Shown here: positions 4,623-51,821 of the stretch, piece after piece
Layout of the letters: each line of letters opens with the position of its first letter
Position numbering within the stretch: position 1 is the stretch's first letter
NCBI GenBank assembly: GCA_902522825.1
Contig: CABYXE010000001.1
Coordinates: 186,001 to 250,000, forward strand
Length of the DNA stretch: 64,000 nucleotides
Reading direction: 5' to 3'
Source of the DNA: an uncultured SAR86 cluster bacterium
GTDB lineage: Bacteria > Pseudomonadota > Gammaproteobacteria > Magnimaribacterales > AG-339-G14
The notes under the pieces: model-generated
Database searches by the model: none
Told to the model about the DNA's origin: nothing
The model's input: only the letters and a program-made list of their open reading frames with translations
Position numbers and translations under genes: made by a program

Positions 4623-4780
4623 TATTAACGAAGTTGAAGGGGTCTAGTGGGTTATCTAGTGCAGGCGAATTACCCTTCTCCCTGCAGGTGGCGAAATTTC
4701 TTCCGTCTTCTCACCCTTCTTCTTCTATCCCTTAGCTTCTTCCTCACCGTCTCGAGTTATTGAAGCTCCTACCAAGGTAT
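4592..4780 (-). ncRNA. Candidate ~185-nt GGA-rich structured RNA (stand-alone sRNA or trpS leader), family unknown
   Basis: No ATG on the minus strand between about 4625 and 4780; upstream TTGAAA-N17-TAAGAT; complementary arms (AGCTTC/GAAGCT, TGCAGG/CCTGCA); terminator at 3' end; five GGA motifs. Confidence 0.5.
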
Positions 4781-49683: not shown

Positions 49684-49711
49684 TTGAAAAAAAGTACCTT
49701 AACTCTATAAT
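49684..49711 (+). promoter_or_regulatory. Strong sigma70 promoter
   Basis: TTGAAA-N16-TATAAT. Confidence 0.75.
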
Positions 49712-49717
49712 TGCACA

Positions 49718-49917
49718 ATAATCGTTCATTCTTAGTATCAATAAGGTGCAAAGAACGGAAGTAGGAAGATAGGAAAACCTCTTTCTTTAAGATTTAAAGA
49801 AAGGCAAGCAAGTACCGATAAGGGAACGAGACCGAATATCTACCGAAGGAACGCGTTGAGAAGGGTGTGTATCTTAAGATGCATGTACGAAATCGAAACG
49901 AAAACTGGAGGCACGAT
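49718..49917 (+). promoter_or_regulatory. Long (~200 nt) GGA-rich structured 5' leader of the YRG micro-protein
   Basis: Predicted TSS to ATG; ACGGAAGTAGGAAGATAGGAAA cluster; perfect hairpin CTTTCTTTAA-GAT-TTAAAGAAAG; imprecise repeat TACCGATAAGGGAACG / TACCGAAGGAACG. Confidence 0.55.
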
Positions 49918-50082
49918 ATGACTACTTATAGAGGTATCAAAGTTACTCCTGAAAATATCTCAAAGGATGAGAAATCTCCAAAAGCAGGTATTTACAGAGG
50001 TACTAAGCACGATGCTATTAAAAGTGAAAAGTCTAACACGTCAGGTGAAGGAATTTACCGTGGTGTTAAGCACGTAGCTTAA
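49918..50082 (+). CDS. 54-aa protein with three YRG repeats (DUF4278-like)
   Basis: MTTYRGIKVTPENISKDEKSPKAGIYRGTKHDAIKSEKSNTSGEGIYRGVKHVA; SD CTGGAGGCACGAT-ATG; followed by terminator. Track start at 49867 is likely too early. Confidence 0.75.
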   Translation: MTTYRGIKVTPENISKDEKSPKAGIYRGTKHDAIKSEKSNTSGEGIYRGVKHVA

Positions 50083-50097
50083 TTATTGATAGCGATA

Positions 50098-50127
50098 AAA
50101 AGGGAGACTTTAGTCTCCCTTTTTTTA
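50098..50127 (+). terminator. Rho-independent terminator of the YRG gene
   Basis: AAAGGGAGACT-TT-AGTCTCCCTTTTTTT. Confidence 0.92.
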
Positions 50128-50174: not shown

Positions 50175-51404
50175 TTACTCTGAAAACTCAGGGTAAGCTG
50201 AGACTCCAACTTCTGAAGCATCCATTCCTTCCATCTCATCTTCTAGAGTAGGACGAAGTCCCATAATAGCTTTGATGACAAGAAGCGTTGCTCCTGCAGT
50301 TATAAAAGTCCAAAGGAATATTGAGACAGCTCCAATTGCTTGTGTGCCAAATGCACCAGCTCCTGATAATGGAGTTGCCATGATTCCCCAAACACCTACC
50401 GTACCGTGAGCTGATATTGCCCCAACTGGGTCATCAACTTTAAGTACTGAGTCAAAGAATACGACTGAAAAATAAACTATCACACCACCGACTGCTCCAA
50501 TGATTGTAGCGAGTCCGCCTGAAGGTGTATCTGGAGCAGCAGTAATTGCAACCAATCCTGCAATAGCACCATTAATACCCATGGTTACGTCCATTTTTCC
50601 TGTTAATACTTTTGAAATAATTATTGCTCCTAAAACACCACCAGCAGCAGCTGCGTTAGTATTTAAGAAGACTTGAGCTACAGCGTTTGCGTTATCAACT
50701 GTGTGTACAGCTAATTGAGAACCACCGTTAAACCCAAACCAACCTAGCCATAGGATAAAAGCACCTAATGCTGCAATTGGAATATTTGAACCTCTCATTA
50801 CAGTTACTGATCCATCAGAACCGTATTTACCAGATCTTGCTCCTAAGATAAGAACAGCTGCTAAAGCGGCAGAAGCCCCACAAAGGTGAACAACACCTGA
50901 ACCTGCAAAATCAGTGTAGCCGATAGCGTCTAACCATCCACCACCCCATTTCCAGTATCCTTGTACAGGATAAATAAAGCCAGTCATAACGACTGCGAAT
51001 ATAAAGAAAGGTATTAATCTCATTCTTTCAGCAACAGCTCCTGAAACAATTGACATAGCAGTTGCGACAAAAACTACCTGGAAGAAGAAATCAGCTGCGT
51101 CAGAATAACCCAAATCATAATTTGCGGTTAGTCCAGACAAGCTAATGCCCCAAGTCGTACCCATTCCTGGCAGATAAGCATTTATAACATCATCGCCTGG
51201 GTACATTAAATAAAAACCACATGCCAAATACATTACGCATGCGATTGAATATAGACCTAAATTTTTGGTTACAATTTCTGAAACGTTTTTTGAACGAACT
51301 AATCCTGCTTCCAACATAGTGAAACCGGCAGCCATCCACATAACGAAAGCTCCAGAAAGTACTAAATAAAAAGTATTTAGTGCAAATTCCATCTCAGTCA
51401 TCAT
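50175..51404 (-). CDS. amtB: Ammonium transporter AmtB
   Basis: FVMWMAAGFTMLEAGLVRSKNVSEI, DFAGSGVVHLCGASAALAAVLILGAR, GWFGFNGGSQ; start set behind SD TTGGAGAAAA. Confidence 0.96.
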   Translation of the reverse strand: MMTEMEFALNTFYLVLSGAFVMWMAAGFTMLEAGLVRSKNVSEIVTKNLGLYSIACVMYLACGFYLMYPGDDVINAYLPGMGTTWGISLSGLTANYDLGYSDAADFFFQVVFVATAMSIVSGAVAERMRLIPFFIFAVVMTGFIYPVQGYWKWGGGWLDAIGYTDFAGSGVVHLCGASAALAAVLILGARSGKYGSDGSVTVMRGSNIPIAALGAFILWLGWFGFNGGSQLAVHTVDNANAVAQVFLNTNAAAAGGVLGAIIISKVLTGKMDVTMGINGAIAGLVAITAAPDTPSGGLATIIGAVGGVIVYFSVVFFDSVLKVDDPVGAISAHGTVGVWGIMATPLSGAGAFGTQAIGAVSIFLWTFITAGATLLVIKAIMGLRPTLEDEMEGMDASEVGVSAYPEFSE

Positions 51405-51750
51405 TTTTCTCCAATAATGCATCTTCACCGGTTTCTCCAGTTCTGATGCGGATTACATCTGTAAGCTCGTTTACGAAGATTTTTCCATCACCTATGGATC
51501 CGGTATTAGCCACGTCACGAACAGCCTCGATGATATTAGGAACATCATCATCGTTGCATGCCACCATTAGCATGCCTTTAGGATTTGTATCAGTTACATA
51601 TTCTGAACCTCTGTAGGAACTTGTATGTCCTTTAGAAGATCCAAAGCCTCTAACGTCAAATAAAGTTGCACCATTTATCTTTATTGCAGACAAAGCGCTT
51701 TTCACGACTTCGACTTTTGACGGTCTCACAACTATATAAACAAGTTTCAC
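51394..51750 (-). CDS. glnK: Nitrogen regulatory protein P-II (GlnK/GlnB), GTG start
   Basis: (M/V)KLVYIVVRPSKVEVVKSAL...VRGFGSSKGHTSSYRGSEYV...IGDGKIFVNELTDVIRIRTGETGEDAL; AGGAGG SD before GTG at 51748-51750. Confidence 0.93.
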   Translation of the reverse strand: MKLVYIVVRPSKVEVVKSALSAIKINGATLFDVRGFGSSKGHTSSYRGSEYVTDTNPKGMLMVACNDDDVPNIIEAVRDVANTGSIGDGKIFVNELTDVIRIRTGETGEDALLEKNDD

Positions 51751-51821
51751 AAATCCTCCTAATGAAAATGATTTTACAGAGGCACGATTTCCCACTAAGA
51801 ATGATGATTTGAAAAAATTTT

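Follow-up and report, generated by a model that had tools for sequence, protein, structure and literature searches.

The window, i.e. the whole stretch of 64,000 nucleotides that was analysed, contains at 49684-50127 on the plus strand a short transcription unit consisting of a promoter, a leader of about 200 nt, an ORF of 54 aa in which the YRG motif occurs three times, and its own terminator, just as a preliminary description made from the letters alone had stated. The sigma-70-type promoter TTGAAA-N16-TATAAT (49684-49711, +) scores 11 of 12 matches; promoter-like matches of this quality are common by chance in AT-rich DNA (3.4 expected in shuffles), and congeners carry close variants at the same place. 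Transcription presumably starts near 49718, so that the leader runs from about 49719 to 49917 and is followed by the ORF at 49918-50082 (+). The Shine-Dalgarno sequence GGAGG (49907-49911, +) is kept, as ACUGGAGG or ACCGGAGG, throughout SAR86 and by numerous phage copies. The intrinsic terminator (50097-50127, +) comprises a hairpin at 50097-50124 with a 12-bp stem (-16.8 kcal/mol) and a subsequent T run; the hairpin was overlooked by a simple terminator scan. An in-frame 71-aa extension of the ORF from the GTG at 49867 was rejected, as this start is not conserved and relatives show upstream indels and stops.

On the 51-kb side the unit faces a convergent gene for an ammonium transporter of the marine subtype (50175-51428, -; TIGR03644 with 582 bits against a cut-off of 514), followed by a PII-family, GlnK-like protein (51394-51759, -), which was matched by the NCBIfam PII models with E = 1e-33 and remained under their equivalog cut-offs. 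Elsewhere in the window, the small RNA IMES-5 (RF02995) was found at 4629-4777 on the minus strand (135.8 bits, cut-off 96.1).

The structured leader

The Rfam model of the glutamine riboswitch aptamer (RF01739) was matched by the leader at 49721-49857 (+) with 45.2 bits, the gathering score being 35, whereby the core was matched and an insert was located in P3. In a faster whole-genome search mode the same site reached 28.6 bits in a different alignment, which is below the cut-off. The insert lowers the aptamer score, and the match has to span a stretch of 77 nt where the model has 6 positions; because its P3 is not the short one of the 53-position consensus, the window aptamer was filed as a variant of RF01739. 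All homologous SAR86 leaders (24/24) lie at or above the gathering score. The elements of the core, namely P1, P2 and the loop-E motif CGGAAGUA..GAAGG, whose halves are ACGGAAGTAGG and CCGAAGGAACG, are matched in the window and are invariant or nearly so in the alignments. Judged by this agreement, the leader is best described as a glutamine riboswitch of an extended form, in which the core would bind glutamine.

The GGA runs, which had been read as CsrA-type sites, belong either to the aptamer consensus (CGGAAGUAGG...CCGAAGGAACG) or to the conserved insert; most of them sit in the conserved aptamer core and are therefore not free, which renders the CsrA reading unneeded. Likewise, the imprecise repeat noticed before is present (49812-49827 and 49841-49853) and consists of the insert's loop-E-like arm (TACCGATAAGGGAACG) and, subsequently, the 3' half of the aptamer (TACCGAAGGAACG). 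The preliminary description was right in proposing control via a structured RNA and did not recognise the mechanism, a glutamine riboswitch; for a dual-function RNA, its other proposal, no supporting evidence was found.

Seven elements were counted as structure, comprising 37 pairs: P1, P2, P3, two insert stems, P4 and P5, all on the plus strand. P1 (49723-49727, CGUUC, with 49849-49853, GAACG) is invariant in 42 of 42 sequences and thus yields no covariation evidence. RNAalifold favours another P1 using the first GAACG copy, the Rfam model takes the second, and since both copies are invariant, covariation does not choose between them. The P2 hairpin (49729-49755) shows changes on both sides at all five of its pairs, and P3 (49764-49771 with 49838-49844), which closes the insert domain, at five of six, for example from AGAU/AUCU to AAAC/GUUU. 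The insert itself (49772-49836, about 65 nt) is a conserved nested three-way junction that is not part of the 53-position Rfam consensus; it is composed, in this order, of GAAAACC, a hairpin, GGCAAGCAAGUACC, a hairpin loop and GGGAACGAGACCGAA. Its first stem is the perfect 10-bp hairpin described earlier, which is indeed present at 49781-49803 and has both-side changes at four of the five modelled pairs. The second stem (49811-49826, AGUACC..GGGAA) contains invariant AGUACC and GGGAACGAGACCGAA, and its counterparts in relatives frequently end in a GNRA-type loop; by its AGUA/GAA pattern it may be assigned as a second loop-E-like arm. The insert would then repeat the plan of the glutamine core, i.e. 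a junction, a plain hairpin and an AGUA/GAA arm. Between the aptamer and the ribosome binding site, P4 (49854-49859 with 49893-49900) and the P5 hairpin (49866-49885) follow within 49854-49900, with double changes at 3/6 and 8/8 pairs, respectively.

In the MAFFT alignment of 25 sequences, which was not fitted to the structure model, 95.9% of the cells were paired, 18 of the 37 pairs changed on both sides and the covariation of 0.307 exceeded that of shuffles (0.133) and, by far, the slid controls. With more divergent phage sequences in an alignment that was fitted to the model, double changes rose to 25/37 and the score to 0.399 (0.143 shuffled). The case for the leader structure rests on this covariation, to which the ordinary single-sequence folding energy (z = -1.06) adds nothing exceptional. 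A search of solved structures returned nothing meaningful.

The YRG micro-protein and the spread of the cassette

That the 54-aa ORF is coding, as had been supposed, is borne out by comparison of the window with four congeners (dS 0.22-0.34, dN 0.02-0.05), and purifying selection on the ORF is clear in several genera. Of 41 related genomes, 25 contain a homologue at E <= 1, and 24 of these homologues are convincing. Leader and ORF, whose separate conservation the preliminary description had proposed to compare, are both conserved, the leader (71-83% nucleotide identity between genera) even above the ORF (55-64%). The three YRG motifs, including their three arginines, are invariant in the 24 SAR86 homologues, and the sequence between them is variable. 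The suspected DUF4278-type repeat was corroborated through relatives: the window protein reaches 19.9 bits with PF14105 (E = 9.5e-4), below the cut-off of 25.3, and homologues from a phage (25.4 bits) and from SAR86 (L120, 30.2 bits) pass it. DUF4278 is the only Pfam match of the protein, and PADLOC gave none. Phage YRG proteins furthermore match the small phage proteins of phrog_5049 (best E 2e-7). The AlphaFold model shows no confident fold (mean pLDDT 57), which fits, without proving it, a short disordered binder.

The neighbouring PII protein retains the T-loop YRGSEY, though it occurs in a family without a detected GlnD domain. The tripeptide YRG recurs in the micro-protein and in the T-loop, possibly by coincidence; the likeness of the two is noted in passing, three residues being too little.

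An exact leader pattern searched in one genome per species over 85,462 species matched 37 contigs, 34 of which are named SAR86, two Gammaproteobacteria and one a Halieaceae MAG, which places the window genome in the SAR86 cluster. When the extended RNA was searched for with a covariance model of its own, 43 full-length copies turned up in the SAR86 order (43 of 204 genomes) and none in about 365 other gammaproteobacteria. The insert core was additionally detected in 40 marine viral contigs, and wherever the flanks sufficed to judge, the insert lay inside a glutamine aptamer. The viral contigs examined carry T4-like neighbours (major head protein, UvsW-like helicase, DNA polymerase, clamp loader and ribonucleotide reductase); the head protein of one of them has its closest counterparts in Pelagibacter phage HTVC008M and methylophage Melnitz (64%).

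RF01739-type elements have been reported from SAR11 and OM43 phages, namely Pelagibacter phage Mosig and methylophage Melnitz (PMC9004378), and glutamine riboswitches from cyanophages such as S-CREM1 (PMC9964418). Like those extended-cassette contigs that were examined, these are T4-like marine phages. Compared by nucleotide sequence, the extended cassette had no match in 50,697 phage records, and known phages gave no protein match either. In cyanophages P-SSM2 and DSL-LC02 ordinary RF01739 elements lie about 200 nt upstream of YRG ORFs.

Ordinary glutamine aptamers and nitrogen-control genes in SAR86

RF01739 matches are widespread in the order: at E <= 0.02 they occur in 104 of 204 genomes, 82 of which are over the cut-off, compared to one of 14 control genomes (Synechococcus elongatus) and to none of 299 genomes sampled across the phylum. 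Often arranged in tandem, ordinary aptamers precede genes for two types of glutamine synthetase, glutamate synthase (gltB), a Gcw_chp porin, a TonB-receptor-like protein and a 477-aa protein whose family is uncertain, as well as micro-proteins that belong to several families. Outside the order, one other gammaproteobacterium (G487) has aptamers before gltB- and gltD-like genes.

Some of these loci deserve separate mention. One porin gene (L121) stands behind three consecutive aptamers. SAR86 micro-proteins of about 54 aa with an FFPYYL end, one of which was tested and had no Pfam match, are located behind tandem aptamers (L125, L126, L128, L129, L132), and others ending in NPFYP or NPYYP occur behind aptamers in SAR86 (L122) and in viral contigs (L201, L213, L218, L230, L241, L256). 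A single aptamer precedes the protein of about 477 aa (RSMGVTFRVYDNN...; L131, L137, L161-L163, L168), whose first 81 aa gave no Pfam match and which may resemble an ATP-grasp type enzyme. At least 119 viral contigs carry ordinary aptamers (loci L196-L275), and the ORFs behind those that were read are almost always very short and come from many families, with endings such as STNNW, RQRKHYVD and KLAMAMR.

None of the 41 SAR86 genomes searched yielded a GlnE. PF08335, a domain found in GlnD, was not detected in the window's family (25 genomes, of which 13 are at least 90% complete); it was detected in 10 of 16 other SAR86 genomes, and the E. coli control was positive. NtrC is encoded in most SAR86 genomes examined, which means that classical nitrogen control is not wholly gone. 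In many SAR86 genomes, and likewise in the Halieaceae MAG, no more than about 4 kb separate the YRG gene from amt-glnK, in differing arrangements; no such linkage was seen in genera g2 and g8.

Proposed mechanism, rival readings and significance

We consider it probable that the extended two-junction glutamine riboswitch controls translation of a small, disordered YRG protein that restrains nitrogen assimilation, which is our best explanation of the locus. Plentiful ammonium would raise glutamine, and the leader would bind it in the core formed by P1, P2 and loop E. This would free the surroundings of the ribosome binding site and allow the YRG protein to be made. An ON switch at high glutamine is proposed by analogy to gifB and to the Prochlorococcus case (PMC6316151). 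On forcing the aptamer helices, the predicted accessibility of the Shine-Dalgarno sequence rose from 0.60 to 0.82 in the window, but only slightly on average, from 0.47 to 0.56. The protein would act by attaching to a partner, for which glutamine synthetase and PII are the foremost candidates, and in the window's family switch and protein together would take the place of GlnD, the glutamine sensor, and of GlnE, the adenylyltransferase, neither of which was detected there. As for the insert, our guess is that it probably adds a second input or a protein-dependent feedback. A pairing of the P3 3' strand with the start-codon spacer, considered as a general switch, is strong in the window's genus and in some relatives; it was dropped, because elsewhere it is often absent or not above shuffled spacers.

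Two readings of the insert are compatible with this explanation, each of them possible though unlikely. In the first, the insert is a candidate binding site of the YRG protein, by which protein feedback would be added to the glutamine switch. Among distinct copies with readable downstream DNA, uncorrected for relatedness, a YRG ORF follows the extended RNA in 44 of 44 cases versus 26 of 128 for ordinary aptamers, and the protein is small, rich in Arg and Lys and predicted to lack a stable fold. However, YRG proteins are also encoded behind ordinary aptamers and behind tandem ones without the insert (L119 and L120, with two each), and the coupling could equally be produced by co-inheritance of the cassette. 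In the second, no likelier in our estimate, the insert would be a putative second aptamer for another metabolite. It shares the topology and the AGUA/GAA pattern with the glutamine core, and its junction is nearly invariant across SAR86, phages and the Halieaceae MAG; a scaffold or stability element could look the same, though, and invariance over about 40 sequences does not by itself prove ligand binding.

The SAR86 copies might also be captured phage genes, the cassette serving mainly in phage-host conflict. Besides its presence in the 40 viral contigs, this draws on the g3 genus, whose protein (L012, L013) is 84% identical to phage versions and 29-54% to other SAR86 versions. As these g3-type copies also sit at the genus's usual place between suhB and secF, a transfer of the cassette between phage and host, in either direction, is probable. 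Conservation across several SAR86 families, purifying selection and the frequent proximity to amt-glnK argue against a mainly phage-related role, which we regard as rather improbable. A diverged aptamer class, with a core binding some ligand other than glutamine, is more doubtful still: riboswitch classes do change specificity and the insert adjoins the binding region, but the consensus core positions are matched in the window, and in related genomes it is GS and GOGAT that ordinary RF01739 aptamers control. Control by CsrA/RsmA, for which the GGA repeats and a CsrA gene in the window genome speak, is very improbable, since the GGA motifs fall within the aptamer consensus and the insert core, and since phages retain them, as does genome G029, where no CsrA was found.

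Returning to the proposed translational glutamine switch, one of its closest known relatives is the type 1 glutamine riboswitch (glnA RNA, RF01739; cyanobacterial gifB/DUF4278), with which it shares P1, P2, the loop-E P3 and a downstream DUF4278-like protein. It differs by the additional nested P3 domain of about 65 nt and the P4/P5 region, and by its host, a gammaproteobacterium, whereas a 2018 review restricted glutamine riboswitches to cyanobacteria, in which they stand mainly before DUF4278 genes and activate expression upon glutamine binding (PMC6316151). The type 2 riboswitch (Downstream-peptide RNA, RF01704) of marine picocyanobacteria resembles the SAR86 system in its glutamine sensing, presumed for SAR86, its small DUF4278 proteins and its marine streamlined genomes, but the window leader was not matched by RF01704 with any E of 5 or less. 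On the protein side, IF17 of Synechocystis (gifB) has an N-terminal DUF4278 and is made at high glutamine via a glutamine riboswitch (PMC6316151). With 149 aa it also possesses an IF7-like GS-binding C-terminal part, while the SAR86 protein of 54 aa consists of the YRG region only. The GS-binding region of IF7/IF17 has three essential arginines; the SAR86 protein has three invariant ones in its YRG motifs, with DUF4278 as its sole Pfam match.

Among the papers searched, none was found that names both SAR86 and this riboswitch; an earlier notice is possible. Associations of these riboswitches with GS, PII and ammonium transporters were known from environmental sequences only (PMC6316151), and our results suggest that SAR86 is the owner of at least some of these "uncultured" glnA RNAs with GS or other nitrogen genes. 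A wider picture, in which a two-domain RNA sensor (the glutamine aptamer plus a second sensing or protein-binding junction in P3) serves one micro-protein family in SAR86 and T4-like marine phages, within a regulon replacing the GlnD/GlnE cascade, is offered tentatively and may well not hold in full. Structural studies of RNA gain a concrete new object in the conserved nested domain, and the cassette might help to recognise SAR86 as the host of T4-like phages.

SAR86, one of the most abundant groups of heterotrophs at the ocean surface, has to our knowledge few or no laboratory models. In much the same way as cyanobacteria, it appears to use RNA as a sensor of its nitrogen status. If true, SAR86 would have swapped the textbook proteobacterial glutamine sensing by GlnD and GlnE for RNA sensors and micro-proteins, either in parallel to cyanobacteria or by transfer from cyanobacteria or phages.
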